Virus record (IMG/VR): IMGVR_UViG_3300006754_000234
Location: 1-21,304 of that record
DNA: 21,304 bases
Strand: one strand, 5' to 3'
DNA from: a virus
Within the stretch, counting starts at the first letter, position 1. Every line of letters begins with the position of its first letter. The notes beneath the pieces were generated by a model, which was given only the letters and a program-made list of their open reading frames with translations, was not told where the DNA came from and did not search any database. Positions 2,149 through 20,754 of this stretch are shown here, piece after piece. Position numbers and translations under genes: made by a program.

Positions 2149-3720
2149 TTAGAATTGCAATATGATTTTTAAGTCTTCTTTTTGGGAGGAAGATCTAGTA
2201 ACAGATGGTCTATTATCAACATAGATGATTTCACCAGAATATTTTTTAACTTCTGGTTGAGCAACACCACTTACGAAATTTTGACCGAGATAATATGTCC
2301 TATTATTTATTACTGTAGACAGACCCTGAAATTCAGTATTAATACCGAGGGATACGCTACCACCTGTAATGGTAAAACTACCTCCTCCAGTCTCATTAAC
2401 AGCAGTTATATCATGTCTAAATCTATTTTGTCTGAATCCATAAACTGGATCAGGATTTAAGGTTCCATTGGAATTAAATCCAGCAGTAGTTCTATCCTGC
2501 CAATACTTTAGAACTCCAGTTATTGGATCATAAGAAATAACCCTTCCAACAGCAGTAGATCCAATACCTACTGTTTGTGTAACAAAAGTGTCAGGAGTAA
2601 AAGCAGCTTCACTATATCCAGTTCCGGAAAGCCTCATACCATACACGGCACTAGCTTTATCCAAAATAAGCATTTGAGTAGAACCCTGTGCTTCAGGATT
2701 CTTTATAAGACCAATTCTAGCAAATTGTTGTCCTGTAACAAAATCTGGATTTTCAGAATCATTTTCAAACCTAGCATATGCTAAAGCATTAAAAGATCCT
2801 AATTCTTGGTATATGTTAGCACCATGTCCACCTGGTGGAGGAATAATAACATCAAAAATTGGAGTAGTGGTCCCAAGAGGAACTCCACCAGCAGCCAGAT
2901 CTAAACTAGCATAAGTGTAATTATCCCCACCATCTGATACAGTAACAGATTCTACTTTAGAGTCGTTATTAACCACAATAGTAGCCTGAGCACCTGCTCC
3001 ATCACCTAAAATAGGAACACCAGTATAGGTCATATTGGCAGTGCCTAGTCCAACTCCCCTATTTTTAATAGTTACAATCTTGAGTTGTCCGCTAGCAGCA
3101 GCATTTGCTACCATAGGTTGATCAGTATTATTTGTTTTCCACTCATCAGGAACAGGAATATAAGATGTAGAATCAAACTTAATTGCTTGACTTGGTTTTA
3201 CACTATAAAGATACTTCCAAATATATCCATCACCACTACTTCCAGCAGCTCTAGGTTCCAAATCAGTAAATGTTGGCTCATCTAAAGAAGGACCACCTTG
3301 ATTATTATTTTCAGGATTAGCATTATTGAAGATACATGCATAAACTCTGAAATCACTATTCATTACATAATAATTTGCAGAATAAATGTCAAAAGCACCC
3401 GAAGGTTGAGAGGCATTATCTCTAGTAATATCATTTCTCCACATGTCATAGGTAACACCTGATGACCATTGCAGCTTTCTAATTACTTGACTTATATCAC
3501 TACTGCCAATTCTCTTGACAGCTAGCATAGTGTCCCAATAATCATTAACCTGTCCGAAACTATCTTTAGGTCCAGGAGGATCAGAGTCCCAAGTCGATGA
3601 ATAGTTGGTAGCATTAGGCAATCCAATAAATGCATAATAAGAATTAGCACTAGATTGTACACCAACTACAAAATTGGTCGCATTCAATATACGAAGCTGA
3701 TCAGTAATTATTGCCGCCAT
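2149..3720 (-). CDS. gp8: Baseplate wedge protein gp8, enlarged
   Basis: This is the T4 gp8 homologue, a baseplate wedge subunit that in T4 binds gp7 and gp10. Landmarks match T4 gp8 as I remember it: GDGYIWKYLY at residues 163-172 (T4 GDGYVWEYLF), FARIGLIKNP at 333-342 (T4 FRQISIITNP) and the C-terminus YSGEIIYVDNRP at 494-505 (T4 HSGEMIYMENRP) followed by a hydrophobic-aromatic end. The N-terminal region with SFGQVNDYWDTMLAVKRI (54-71) also fits. It has 523 residues against 334 in T4. The excess falls in two places: about residues 205-300, which carry two G-x-G-Y-like repeats also found in the giant gp7, and about 345-490, which includes GRVISYDPITGVLKYW (392-407). The ATG at 3718-3720 gives the conserved N-terminus. 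A TAATAAATA box precedes it in a 31-nt gap. The DUF4815 gene follows after 6 nt. Identity is confident; the role of the inserts is unknown. Confidence 0.95.
   Translation of the reverse strand: MAAIITDQLRILNATNFVVGVQSSANSYYAFIGLPNATNYSSTWDSDPPGPKDSFGQVNDYWDTMLAVKRIGSSDISQVIRKLQWSSGVTYDMWRNDITRDNASQPSGAFDIYSANYYVMNSDFRVYACIFNNANPENNNQGGPSLDEPTFTDLEPRAAGSSGDGYIWKYLYSVKPSQAIKFDSTSYIPVPDEWKTNNTDQPMVANAAASGQLKIVTIKNRGVGLGTANMTYTGVPILGDGAGAQATIVVNNDSKVESVTVSDGGDNYTYASLDLAAGGVPLGTTTPIFDVIIPPPGGHGANIYQELGSFNALAYARFENDSENPDFVTGQQFARIGLIKNPEAQGSTQMLILDKASAVYGMRLSGTGYSEAAFTPDTFVTQTVGIGSTAVGRVISYDPITGVLKYWQDRTTAGFNSNGTLNPDPVYGFRQNRFRHDITAVNETGGGSFTITGGSVSLGINTEFQGLSTVINNRTYYLGQNFVSGVAQPEVKKYSGEIIYVDNRPSVTRSSSQKEDLKIILQF
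2516..3110 (-). other. Inserts in gp8 relative to T4 gp8
   Basis: This span covers most of the extra sequence of the enlarged gp8. Residues about 205-300 contain an IKNRGVGLG segment (219-226) and SDGGDNYTY (262-270), each preceded by a Val/Ile-rich strand. This is the same pattern as the G-x-G-Y repeats of the neighbouring giant protein. A third GTGY occurs at 366-369 in a different context. The conserved T4-like landmarks flank the inserts on both sides, so they look like insertions into the gp8 fold and not a replacement. Boundaries are approximate. Confidence 0.6.
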
Positions 3721-3751: not shown

Positions 3752-6010
3752 TTATCTAAGAGTCGGATAGACAAATATAGTTCCACCCATTCCTGTGTGA
3801 GCAGTACACTGATAATACAGAGTATCAGGAGCATTAAATGGTACTTCAAAAATAATAGTTGATCCACCAGCACCATCATTATTAATTACTCCAGAACCAT
3901 ATGCTGCTCCTGTAGAACCATTTTGAGTGGTTTGAATTCTAAATGGATGTGCATTAGTACTATTACCATTAACAAACTGATAAGTATTACCTCTTGCAAG
4001 ATAAAGATCTGGATCATTTTCTGTTGCAGTAAGTCCAATACCAGTAAATGTATAATCAGTAGTGCCATTAGCACCAAGAACCCAGGTTCCTCTAATAGAA
4101 CGAGAAATGTCCCCACTTACAGATGAACCAGCACCAATTACAATTCCAGTAGATGAAGTAGTTACAGCAGAACCAACTACAGAAGAAGTAGATGTTGTAA
4201 CACCACTAATAACAATACCACCAGCTCCAGTATCAACACTTGCACCATTAAGTTCACCATTCACATCGCCTGTTACATTTCCAGTTAAAGGTCCAACAAA
4301 ACTAGATGCAGTAGAAATACCAGAATTAACTTGCCCTACATTATTAAGACTAACAGCACCAATAGTAGCAGTGGTTGCTGACAAATTAGTAACAGTACCA
4401 GTAGTTATGGTTGCAACACCAGAATTAACATTACCACTGAATGTAGTAGATGTTGTAACACCCAGAACTTCTAAACCCCAAGTAGTAACAGTAACTCCAG
4501 TACCCAAAGTAGGAGTACCAGTCAAATTACCACTAAAGGTAGCAGCAGTTACAATACCTGCTTGACCTGCATCAACACCCCATCCATAAAGTGAAACCCC
4601 AGAACCAACAATTGCTTTAGTAGCAGTAACTATTCCAGAATCCACTTGCCCAACAAAAGTTGTGGCAGTTGCAAATCCCGATACAGTTAAGTCTGTAATA
4701 GTGGCAACACCAACTTGTAATACTCCACTGACAGTTGAAACACCAGCAGAAGAGACATATATTGCATCAGAGAATGTAGCAATGCCAGAAGAAGTAATAT
4801 TATCGGTTCTAGCAACACCAGTTAAATTTGTACCATCTCCAAATAAGAAGTTAGAATAAATATCAGTTGCCTGAACAGAAGTAGCACCTGTAACAATACC
4901 AAGAGTAGTAATACCAGGAACACTCAATCCAGTACAAATACCAATTATATTCAGACCATTCGTTCTCCCATCAACATATAATTGACCTACAGTAGCAAGA
5001 CCTGCTACATTTAAATCTGTGAAATCATTTGGTGTAGCTTCTATTGCAGATTCAATTGTTGCTGTAGTTGTAGCATCAAGAGATGCTATATTACTTAATT
5101 TTCTTGCAGCAGTAACAACAGCATTAGCACCAACACTAAATGATGATGCAGTACAAACTCCACTAATATTTGCACCAGAACCACCAGTAGCATGTAGATC
5201 TGTACCTGTAATTATCCCACAAAGAATACTAGGAGAACCTGATAATCCTTGAGCATTAGTTGCAATTGTTGCTGTACTAGCAGTACCTGTCAGATTACCT
5301 GTTACATCACCAGTTAAATCTCCTATAACTCCGCCATTAGCATCTATACTACCAGTAAATGTTCCAACTCCGGTAACTTCAATTCCAGCAGAACCAATAG
5401 TTACTGCAGTACCAGTTACATTAGTTGCAGTAAGATTTGTAATAGTAGCATTAGTAATAGTTGCAGTATCAGTAATGCTAATAGCTGTTGCAGCAATACC
5501 AGTAGTTCCTAAAGTAACTGTACTAAGACCAACCCAAGAATCTACCCCTGTTCCTCTAACTGAAAATGAAGTTGCTGTTACAACCCCAGTTACCTGAACA
5601 CCTAGTGTGCTAGAGGTAACAACACCAGCAGTAACCACTGAAGTGTTAATTACTGCGGAACCAGCAGTTACAATACCAGCAGCATTGAAGTATCCAGCAG
5701 AAGAGAATGTATTACCAGAACCTACTGTACTATCTCCAAGAGTAGATACCCCAGTTACATTAAGAGTCTCTGCACTGATTACAGCAGTGTTTGCCAGTCC
5801 TGTAATGGTGGGAGCACCATAAGAAGTGGAAATACTAAGAGGTCCTGAAACTGCAATAGAACTAACAATTCCTACAAACGTACTACTTCCATCTCCTATT
5901 ATTCCATAAACTTCAGTAAAGTTTGAATTGACTTTAACGGCACCAGCTAATAGGCTATCACCTGTGCCATCATTCGGAGTCGTTCCTGTACTTATTCCTA
6001 ATTTAGCCAT
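3752..6010 (-). CDS. Repetitive tail-fibre-like structural protein with C-terminal cupredoxin-like domain
   Basis: This 752-aa protein has three parts. The N-terminus (MAKLGISTGTTPNDGTGDS, then VKVNSNFTEVYGIIGDG) is a form I recognise from T4-like cyanophage structural proteins and probably anchors it to the particle. Residues about 45-640 are low-complexity Thr/Ser/Val/Gly repeats with recurring elements such as GIVTAATFSG, GVVTATSFS, GISTASSFVG, GDVTGNLTG and LFGDGTNLTGV, typical of elongated beta-rich, usually trimeric, fibres. Residues about 641-752 look like a cupredoxin fold with H688 (HPFRIQ) and C735-x2-H738-x2-M741, a complete type-1 copper ligand set. The gene lies between gp7 and gp8, so a fibre attached to the wedge is inferred. 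It starts at an ATG 38 nt after the gp7 stop and has its own TAATAAATA box. There is no clear Shine-Dalgarno and no signal peptide. Whether metal is bound and what the receptor is remain unknown. Confidence 0.93.
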   Translation of the reverse strand: MAKLGISTGTTPNDGTGDSLLAGAVKVNSNFTEVYGIIGDGSSTFVGIVSSIAVSGPLSISTSYGAPTITGLANTAVISAETLNVTGVSTLGDSTVGSGNTFSSAGYFNAAGIVTAGSAVINTSVVTAGVVTSSTLGVQVTGVVTATSFSVRGTGVDSWVGLSTVTLGTTGIAATAISITDTATITNATITNLTATNVTGTAVTIGSAGIEVTGVGTFTGSIDANGGVIGDLTGDVTGNLTGTASTATIATNAQGLSGSPSILCGIITGTDLHATGGSGANISGVCTASSFSVGANAVVTAARKLSNIASLDATTTATIESAIEATPNDFTDLNVAGLATVGQLYVDGRTNGLNIIGICTGLSVPGITTLGIVTGATSVQATDIYSNFLFGDGTNLTGVARTDNITSSGIATFSDAIYVSSAGVSTVSGVLQVGVATITDLTVSGFATATTFVGQVDSGIVTATKAIVGSGVSLYGWGVDAGQAGIVTAATFSGNLTGTPTLGTGVTVTTWGLEVLGVTTSTTFSGNVNSGVATITTGTVTNLSATTATIGAVSLNNVGQVNSGISTASSFVGPLTGNVTGDVNGELNGASVDTGAGGIVISGVTTSTSSVVGSAVTTSSTGIVIGAGSSVSGDISRSIRGTWVLGANGTTDYTFTGIGLTATENDPDLYLARGNTYQFVNGNSTNAHPFRIQTTQNGSTGAAYGSGVINNDGAGGSTIIFEVPFNAPDTLYYQCTAHTGMGGTIFVYPTLR
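3755..4090 (-). other. Cupredoxin-like domain at the fibre C-terminus
   Basis: Residues 641-752 of the 752-aa protein run from a GTWVLG segment through DYTFTG, a DPDLYLARGNTYQFVN strand and HPFRIQ (H688) to YYQCTAHTGMGGTIFVYP (C735, H738, M741). The order His, then Cys-x2-His-x2-Met near the C-terminus, is the ligand layout of type-1 copper proteins. Plastocyanin has Cys-x2-His-x4-Met, and cytochrome oxidase subunit II has the His-x2-Met spacing. All four candidate ligands are present. Copper binding itself is an inference. Confidence 0.7.
4091..5876 (-). repeat. Degenerate Thr/Ser/Gly/Val fibre repeats
   Basis: Residues about 45-640 of the 752-aa protein consist of imperfect units of roughly 14-30 residues built around a 'GIVTATSF-x-G' core, interspersed with 'LTGDVTGNLTG' type stretches. 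Examples are GVVTATSFSVRGTG, GQVDSGIVTATKAIVG, AGIVTAATFSGNLTG, LGVTTSTTFSGNVNSG and SGISTASSFVGPLTGNVTG. The pattern is visible at protein level. At DNA level the copies have diverged, so this is an old repeat and not a recent tandem duplication. Confidence 0.75.
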
Positions 6011-18441: not shown

Positions 18442-20352
18442 TTAAGTCGATTTTCTTATAAGAGTTTCTTGTTGGTAACTTGAGGTTACCGCATAACTAG
18501 TTCCAGAAAGATTATCCCCAGAAGCAATTTCATCAGGAAGCATAGTTACAGTGCAATTACTTGCATCTAATTGTAAGTAGAGATCTTGTAATCCAATAAC
18601 ATCATTAGAAAATGGTGTCATAGAAATCTCAATTAAAGGTACTCCTCTATCTATCTCAGTAGAAATGATATTCATTGGATTTAATTTAATCTCACCTTTA
18701 ACATAATCAACAGTACCAACATTACCTTTTACAAGAACTGGTTGTGTTGGAGAGTTTAACTTGAAGAAGAAAATAGTTCCTGTCTTAAGATCTTTATTAG
18801 GAAGATCTGCCAAATAAACTACATTACTCACACCACTTACATGGAACCCTGAAGATCTAATATTGTGTCCTTCTTCACTCTTAATATGGAATCTGTTACC
18901 AAAACAAATTTCATATTCAGCAAATGTATTGATAACAGGTTCCATGTCTCTTCTCATATTTACCGTAGTAATATTAGAAGTAATTGCATCCTGACTATTA
19001 TCAATAACCTGAAGGAACTTACTATACTTAAAGCGAGCACCAAACTTATTTAACTGAGTAGAATCAGAATAATCTACAATATTATTTAATACCTGTTCCT
19101 TAACATAATTTGGTGACTGTGCTTTATTAGTGTTATAATAAACAGTACTATATGTTTCCACATACAAATACTTTAGATCAAGTATTTCAGTTATAATACC
19201 TGCAACAGAATATCTTTTCAATTCTTTTTTAATATTTGCTTTAATGGCACTAGTCAAATAAACACCATTAAATGGTTTAATACTAATAAAGACTTCACCA
19301 TATCTAGGGGGTGTTAATTCTTCACCACCATATGCAGAGACAGACTCTGCTTCAGCATAAATTCTAGGAACTAATGCTTCGAAGTCTGGTGCTGTAACTG
19401 CTCTATTCTGGGAAGCATAGATTTGAGTAGAATATTTTTTAACTGATTCTACACTTTCAATTGATTTTCCACCACCAGAAGGACTATTATTAGATATTAC
19501 AGAAACACCTTGAGTAATAGATGTTCCATCATTACTTACTAATCTACCAGCATAGGTGAAATTGGATAGTCCATTTGCATCTGCACCACTAGAAGTAATA
19601 TAACTGACTTCTATGTAATTGGGCTCTTCTATTTTCTTACCAAATGTCCCATCCCCAAAAATAACTTCATATCTTTCATTATCTACTTCTTGAAGGAAAT
19701 AGATCATGGAGTCTTTCTTTACTTGAAAAAGACTATTAAATTGTTTATACTTATCTTTAACTGACGATGCTTCTGAATCCTTAACAATTACCCTTATAAG
19801 ATTAGTATCAATTCCAGCATTAGGAAGGATAAATCTTTGATTGGGATTTCTTGAACTTGCAGTAAATGTTTGATTGATATATGTTCCTTCATATGCTTTT
19901 ACGTTCTCAAAATATGCAACACCTGTAGAAGTTACTGGTACTGTAATATCATCAGGAATAGCAAAAGTATAAGTAGTCTTTCCAAATGTCCCAGCAGTTA
20001 CTAATATAATTCCTGCTTTAAGAGTCAAAGTAACAGCAGTAGTTGCGGATGCATCTACTGAGAAAGAAATATCAGTTACTGCTGACTTCCTGGAAGTAGG
20101 AACATAACCTATATTCCTTGCCAGAGACACCACATTCTCCCTGAGAGTGGCGGAATCAATGAACACCTCATTAGTTACCATGTTGGCATTATATGAGGTA
20201 ATATAGGTATTATAAGCAAGTGTGTCTATAACTGTCGAGAGATTAGATCCTTCAAAATCATAATCAGTAAAATTGGAGTTAGCTCTCAAATAATCCGTGA
20301 TGGACGTTTTGATCTGATCAAAGTCGACGTTACTAAAATTAACTAAAGGCAT
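18442..20352 (-). CDS. gp6: Baseplate wedge protein gp6
   Basis: This is the T4 gp6 homologue (636 aa against about 660 in T4), the protein that forms the inner ring of the baseplate together with gp7 and gp25. The N-terminus is the characteristic gp6 start: VNFSNVDFDQIKTSITDYLR, then an FTDYDFEGSNLSTVIDTLAY stretch, VTNEVFIDSATLRENVVSLA and NIGYVPTSRKSA (to about residue 93). The middle has the Baseplate_J-like signature: RAVTAPDFEALVPRIYAEAE from R317, then SVSAYGGEE and PPRYGEVFISIKPFNG (to about 365). The C-terminal part is predicted to be the dimerisation and ring-forming region by analogy. The ATG directly abuts the gp25 stop (TAAATG), and the gp7-like gene starts 6 nt after its own stop, so the three genes form a tight translational unit. 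Nothing in it looks truncated. Confidence 0.96.
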   Translation of the reverse strand: MPLVNFSNVDFDQIKTSITDYLRANSNFTDYDFEGSNLSTVIDTLAYNTYITSYNANMVTNEVFIDSATLRENVVSLARNIGYVPTSRKSAVTDISFSVDASATTAVTLTLKAGIILVTAGTFGKTTYTFAIPDDITVPVTSTGVAYFENVKAYEGTYINQTFTASSRNPNQRFILPNAGIDTNLIRVIVKDSEASSVKDKYKQFNSLFQVKKDSMIYFLQEVDNERYEVIFGDGTFGKKIEEPNYIEVSYITSSGADANGLSNFTYAGRLVSNDGTSITQGVSVISNNSPSGGGKSIESVESVKKYSTQIYASQNRAVTAPDFEALVPRIYAEAESVSAYGGEELTPPRYGEVFISIKPFNGVYLTSAIKANIKKELKRYSVAGIITEILDLKYLYVETYSTVYYNTNKAQSPNYVKEQVLNNIVDYSDSTQLNKFGARFKYSKFLQVIDNSQDAITSNITTVNMRRDMEPVINTFAEYEICFGNRFHIKSEEGHNIRSSGFHVSGVSNVVYLADLPNKDLKTGTIFFFKLNSPTQPVLVKGNVGTVDYVKGEIKLNPMNIISTEIDRGVPLIEISMTPFSNDVIGLQDLYLQLDASNCTVTMLPDEIASGDNLSGTSYAVTSSYQQETLIRKST

Positions 20353-20754
20353 TTACCTAGTGGGTTGCAATGCAAACGAAAGTGATTGTTCTGGCACATC
20401 AATGCCAACAATAAAATATTGTACAGTTACATTAAATTCATTGTTATCATAATTTGGTTCAACTGTAATCTCATCTATCTCTACACGTGGTTCAAAGTTC
20501 TCAATGGTATTTTCAATCTCTGAACGAATTGCAGAAGCAGTTAGTTTATCCATATTATCAAATAACAGGTTAGAGACATTAGATCCAAGAACTGGATTAA
20601 ATGGTCTTTCACCTGGAACTGTTAAAACTAAGTTACGAATAGAACGAGCAATTGCATTTTCATTTTTTAACGCAATTAAATCAGTATTCAAGGGATTAGC
20701 TTGAAAGCTTGCACTTAAATCTTTAAAACCTTGACTGATTCTCTGAACCGGCAC
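20353..20754 (-). CDS. gp25: Baseplate wedge protein gp25 (gp25/TssE-like)
   Basis: This protein has 133 aa, against 132 in T4 gp25. It belongs to the gp25/TssE family, which clamps the gp6/gp7 core bundle and nucleates the sheath. The family core is clear: ARSIRNLVLTVPGERPFNP at residues 36-54 with the following GSNVSNLLFDN, and the E-P-R triad at 88-90 (NFEPRVEI), which in T4 and type VI secretion systems contacts the core bundle. The start is GTG (20752-20754): the preceding in-frame codon is TAA, and no ATG occurs before the conserved core. A late-promoter box lies about 22 nt upstream, and no Shine-Dalgarno is visible. In T4, gene 25 lies away from genes 6-8. Here it is fused into the same cluster, its stop touching the gp6 start. 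Confidence 0.97.
   Translation of the reverse strand: MPVQRISQGFKDLSASFQANPLNTDLIALKNENAIARSIRNLVLTVPGERPFNPVLGSNVSNLLFDNMDKLTASAIRSEIENTIENFEPRVEIDEITVEPNYDNNEFNVTVQYFIVGIDVPEQSLSFALQPTR

Follow-up and report, generated by a model that had tools for sequence, protein, structure and literature searches.

One gene of a marine phage contig raises the question of why a baseplate-anchored fibre should end in a domain carrying the complete ligand set of a type-1 copper protein, and of what such a domain would do there. The window analyzed here is the whole 21,304-nt stretch of IMG/VR record IMGVR_UViG_3300006754_000234. A sequence-only reading of it had proposed a cupredoxin-like domain with a copper site at a fibre tip. 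We know of no virion that has been shown to carry a blue-copper site. Our main reading, to which we give a probability of roughly 60%, is that residues 638–752 of the 752-aa protein are a cupredoxin with an intact predicted amicyanin-type copper site, forming the exchangeable outer head of a baseplate-anchored cyanophage fibre.

The fibre protein and its neighbours

The family matched by the 752-aa protein, PHROG 677, is labelled "baseplate wedge tail fiber protein connector" (Table 1). T4 gp10 matches residues 1–45 of the protein (E 1.2e-5) and T4 gp9 its first ~75 residues (E 0.0055); these matches identify the N-terminal region as the baseplate anchor, which leaves the C-terminal domain as the probable outer end. 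The N-terminal anchor, the PHROG 677 match and the adjoining gp8 are together those of a gp9-type connector. V-T-A-x-x-F motifs are dispersed along the intervening shaft (residues 46–637).

The order of the genes, gp25, gp6, the 4128-aa wedge protein, the 752-aa fibre protein, gp8 and a DUF4815 protein, is that of T4-like cyanophages. The closest isolate, judged by gp6, is Prochlorococcus phage P-TIM68; in it and in RB11-B the gene at this place has exactly the same two neighbours, the giant wedge protein and gp8. The P-TIM68 gene at this place, annotated "baseplate wedge tail fiber protein connector", encodes a protein with a cupredoxin domain at its end and with 57% identity to the 752-aa protein over residues 1–399 of the latter. 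The 4128-aa wedge protein itself contains a YHYH domain (PF14240, E 2.3e-24) at residues 1246–1353.

Table 1. Positions of the features discussed, in window coordinates unless another locus is named.
Feature	Positions	Strand	Basis
gp25 baseplate wedge	20353..20754	-	Pfam match
gp6 baseplate wedge	18442..20352	-	73.7% identical to P-TIM68
Baseplate wedge protein, 4128 aa	6049..18435	-	Synteny with P-TIM68 gp086
gp9/gp10-type baseplate-anchored fibre protein, 752 aa	3752..6010	-	PHROG 677, E 1.2e-36
N-terminal baseplate anchor, residues 1–45	5876..6010	-	Homology to T4 gp10 and gp9
Low-complexity Thr/Gly/Ser-rich shaft, residues 46–637	4100..5875	-	Translation, motif positions
C-terminal cupredoxin domain, residues 638–752, eight predicted strands	3755..4099	-	AlphaFold2, Foldseek, PDB profile search
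Codon of ligand His688, two residues ahead of the fifth predicted strand	3947..3949	-	Kept in 154/156
Ligand loop C735-T-A-H738-T-G-M741, amicyanin spacing, past the seventh predicted strand	3788..3808	-	Translation, AlphaFold2 strands
gp8 baseplate wedge	2149..3720	-	Pfam Phage-Gp8, E 1.5e-13
gp9-like genes with the TGVVTTLTGADGSG repeat (RB11-B, S-B43, RN05-S)	L154 3705-5351, L201 8193-9682, L202 10538-11869		

Fold and ligand set of the C-terminal domain

AlphaFold2 modelled residues ~638–752 with pLDDT 93.7 and pTM 0.87 from a 39-sequence alignment (pLDDT 88.3 from a shallower alignment of 26 sequences), and the model has eight strands, as in the Greek-key beta sandwich of about eight strands that characterizes the cupredoxin superfamily. 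When the model was compared with the PDB by Foldseek, the best 50 matches were all of cupredoxin fold and nearly all type-1 copper proteins, including rusticyanin, nitrite reductase, laccases, plastocyanin and amicyanin; the earlier, shallower alignment returned largely the same proteins. The sequence-only reading had asked for precisely this structural comparison, and both the predicted fold and the C-terminal location of the domain agree with what it proposed. TM-scores to solved cupredoxins were only ~0.45–0.60, marking the domain as a divergent member of the superfamily.

Profile searches led to the same group of proteins. A family profile built from an alignment of 39 viral relatives gave copper cupredoxins as 58 of the 60 PDB matches listed, with best E-values of 6e-5 for nitrite reductase, 2.8e-4 for plastocyanin and 7e-4 for amicyanin, and several below 1e-3. 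With the single sequence there was one good PDB match, 2vmj, an engineered nitrite reductase with an amicyanin loop (E 3e-4). The single-sequence score for Pfam Copper-bind (PF00127) was 15.6 bits (E = 0.021) and lies under the curated cut-off of 21.2, so that the domain is not filed as a member of PF00127; the amicyanin family TIGR02657 (NCBIfam) scored 14.8 bits against an equivalog cut-off of 110.2, with the loop spacing alone in common. When the domain family was aligned by hhalign with six phage plastocyanins (E 4.8e-6), the H, C, H and M of the domain fell on the H, C, H and M of plastocyanin, with a two-residue gap between His and Met. A chance motif was ruled out by fold, profile similarity and conservation.

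Translation of the open reading frame places H688, C735, H738 and M741 where they had been reported, the last three encoded at 3806–3808, 3797–3799 and 3788–3790, in a protein that contains three His in all (H273, H688, H738) and four Cys. In the model the strand order of the ligands is canonical: the first His stands two residues ahead of strand 5, the Cys ends strand 7, and His and Met follow in the same C-terminal loop. Judged from these strand positions, the placement of the four ligands is consistent with a predicted type-1 copper site. The Cys-x2-His-x2-Met spacing had been regarded as unusual, but it is that of the amicyanin loop CTPHPFM, described in the titles of 2vmj and 2ux6. The window loop, CTAHTGM, also has the Thr after Cys found in the amicyanin loop.

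Conservation of the ligands in homologous phage fibres is high: the pattern was HCHM in 154 of 156 distinct viral copies, and GNRM and FAVM in one each. Both exceptions lost H, C and H together and kept Met alone, and no intermediate with two or three ligands was present among the 156. At 60% redundancy, H, C and H were each found in 32/34 copies and M in 34/34, a level reached elsewhere in the domain only by Y653, G674 and Y733. Some of the patterns used to fetch loci held ligand residues, which biases this sample; all four ligands were nevertheless present in the loci fetched with a probe ending upstream of the first ligand. Ligand loss that is all-or-none, as it appears from these sequences, is what a metal site predicts.

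The same data bear on the view that the fold is metal-free in the virion, with the four residues kept for packing and the domain acting as a stable beta-sandwich adhesin. Two copies persist without three of the four ligands, one of them common to RB11-B and S-B43, and more distant copies in Eurybiavirus baseplate proteins also lack the ligands; the fold can thus persist without the metal site. These few copies apparently still serve, which counts against our preferred explanation. However, the all-or-none loss, together with a Cys-His-Met loop that is near-invariant in copies down to 21–30% identity with the window domain, makes a metal-free head unlikely. The two degenerate copies lie at residues 623–731 of a 998-aa ORF (locus L101) and, in RB11-B and S-B43 (L174/L204/L205), in another protein than the gp9-like one; they constitute a natural apo-control for the metal site.

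The ligand set also has to be considered for another metal, likeliest Zn(II), in a purely structural role. Cys-His-His sets are good zinc binders, and virions mature in the cytoplasm, where free copper is scarce. The conserved axial Met and the homology to copper proteins favour copper, and we regard zinc as distinctly unlikely.

Distribution, placement and exchange

A tblastn search of phage isolates, which requires no motif, placed the cupredoxin domain in at least 342 phage records, from phages of Synechococcus, Prochlorococcus, Pelagibacter and Methylophilales; the domain also occurs on contigs with collagen-like neighbours. The copies from Pelagibacter and Methylophilales phages retain all ligands. 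Mimicry of a host electron-transfer protein, one of the roles originally suggested, is disfavoured by this presence in phages of heterotrophs and by the occurrence of plastocyanin in cyanophages as a gene of its own. A scan of genomes for cellular copies yielded four metagenome-assembled contigs only, as candidate cellular copies. Two BFVD matches, A0A481Z6J5 and A0A481YWX9, have the same fold in pithovirus- and marseillevirus-like genomes and are annotated just "beta-sandwich protein".

The position of the domain varies. It is C-terminal in gp9 of S-SSM5, P-SSM4, Syn33 and S-ShM2, N-terminal in a P-SSM2 fibre protein and in the podoviruses P-SCSP2 and P-GSP1, tandem in one locus (L010), and internal in others. 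The proposal of a fibre tip therefore holds for the window, where the domain is the C-terminal end of a gp9/gp10-like protein, but a pure tip role is not general, and a "tip adhesin" alone could not account for every copy. A docking module placed where fibres end or join suits all of these positions. In P-SSM2 the domain is N-terminal in the fibre protein (L048 5830-9114), whereas in other phages it is C-terminal in gp9 (L050, L150, L156, L158), and no gp9-annotated match was seen among the four domain matches of P-SSM2; the two kinds of copy might occupy one joint from opposite sides.

Four phages, RB11-B, S-B05, S-B43 and RN05-S, share the host Synechococcus MW02. Across the N-terminal 343 aa of the gp9-like protein, RB11-B and S-B43 have 98.5% identity, and in gp8 they have 99.8%. 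RB11-B has the cupredoxin end, S-B43 and RN05-S have a different C-terminus, and the DNA match of S-B05 ends ahead of the domain. Near-identical phages of one strain thus differ in their C-terminus, which indicates that the domain at this position is swappable and is not required for MW02. Such a pair with and without the domain makes the question of its role testable without engineering. A near-identical repeat, TGVVTTLTGADGSG, occurs in variable copy number within the gp9-like genes of RB11-B, S-B43 and RN05-S; in S-B43 two overlapping ORFs take the place of the single gene, the break lying inside the repeat.

In hundreds of genomes the module is currently annotated only "hypothetical" or "tail fiber", and the present finding gives it a name. 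A cupredoxin module on the fibres of hundreds of marine phages has apparently not been described previously: our search, which covered the open literature, found no description of a phage cupredoxin, and a word search for copper in the P-SCSP1u and A-1(L) structure papers found grid preparation only.

Possible roles and comparison with known systems

Our best reading of the sequence and the model is that the domain would serve as a head for docking or adhesion that binds a metal, probably copper. By homology to T4 gp10 and gp9, the N-terminus would plug into the baseplate, and the repetitive shaft would extend outward from it. The head would fold and take a metal, likeliest copper, on His-Cys-His-Met; fold and ligands support this step, and we infer the uptake, with the metal, probably copper, being acquired once the cell has lysed, from its debris or from seawater. 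By holding the two loops in place at one end of the sandwich, the metal may make the ligand loops rigid, and the rigid surface of the head could then dock a partner fibre or adhere to the host surface. Of the roles suggested by the sequence-only reading, a structural one fits the modular exchange best; the data speak neither for nor against copper sensing or scavenging.

More active roles for the metal have to be weighed against this docking or adhesion head. The site could be redox-active in the virion, sensing redox at the cell surface or in the periplasm or passing electrons as an infection trigger, and the complete type-1 ligand set with axial Met and the amicyanin-like Thr after Cys would suit such chemistry. 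The domain is, however, without a known redox partner, no electron-transfer chain is known on a phage tail, and its presence in phages of both phototrophic and heterotrophic hosts shows no link to host metabolism; we consider a redox function very unlikely. Least likely among the alternatives is a copper Trojan horse, comparable to the Ferrojan hypothesis, in which a host copper-uptake receptor would mistake the loaded site for a copper source. The domain does lie outermost in a protein anchored in the baseplate, and a host-entry use has been proposed for iron in phage fibre tips (PMC11705849). Nevertheless, a single strain, Synechococcus MW02, is also infected by phages lacking the domain at this place, no receptor is known, and elsewhere the domain lies at the N-terminus, close to the tail. 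The broader idea that marine phage fibres bear a redox-capable type-1 copper centre, whose copper state is used on meeting the host as a trigger, sensor or lure, appears doubtful to us. To our knowledge, no virus has a metal-dependent infection step of this kind.

Should copper be bound in these domains, phages that infect the most abundant marine bacteria would represent a pool of particulate copper and form a new class of metalloprotein virion; the amount of copper available could then influence their adsorption.

Among known systems, the type-1 copper proteins (amicyanin, plastocyanin, rusticyanin and the nitrite reductase domain) share the cupredoxin fold, with profile E-values of 6e-5 to 1e-3. 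They also share the ligand order, which in the window domain is His ahead of predicted strand 5 and then Cys-x2-His-x2-Met past strand 7, the spacing of amicyanin. Unlike these proteins, the window domain is part of a phage structural protein, without a known redox partner, and its first His lies in H-P-F rather than in the H-N of small blue copper proteins. This H-P-F resembles the H-P-x-H motif of multicopper oxidases. Cyanophage petE plastocyanin has the same fold and ligands and is present in some of the same genomes, but it is encoded by separate genes (open frames of 107–131 aa), has Cys-x2-His-x4-Met and is only remotely similar to the domain. Recent capture of the phage's own plastocyanin gene was rejected, since the phage plastocyanins resemble the domain only distantly (best E 3e-4).

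A metal site on a phage fibre, as proposed here, has a counterpart in the HxH fibre tips of T4 gp37 and Alteromonas phage R22Y, although the metal there is iron, bound on His-x-His pairs (PMC11705849). A site of that type was rejected for the 752-aa protein, whose three His form no HxH. T4 gp9 and gp10 have the N-terminal anchor motif and the gp8-adjacent gene position in common with the window protein but match it in the first ~75 residues only, the window protein having 752 aa and a long repetitive shaft. With gp9 of the Kyanoviridae (T4-GC 398), the window protein also has the cupredoxin end in common.
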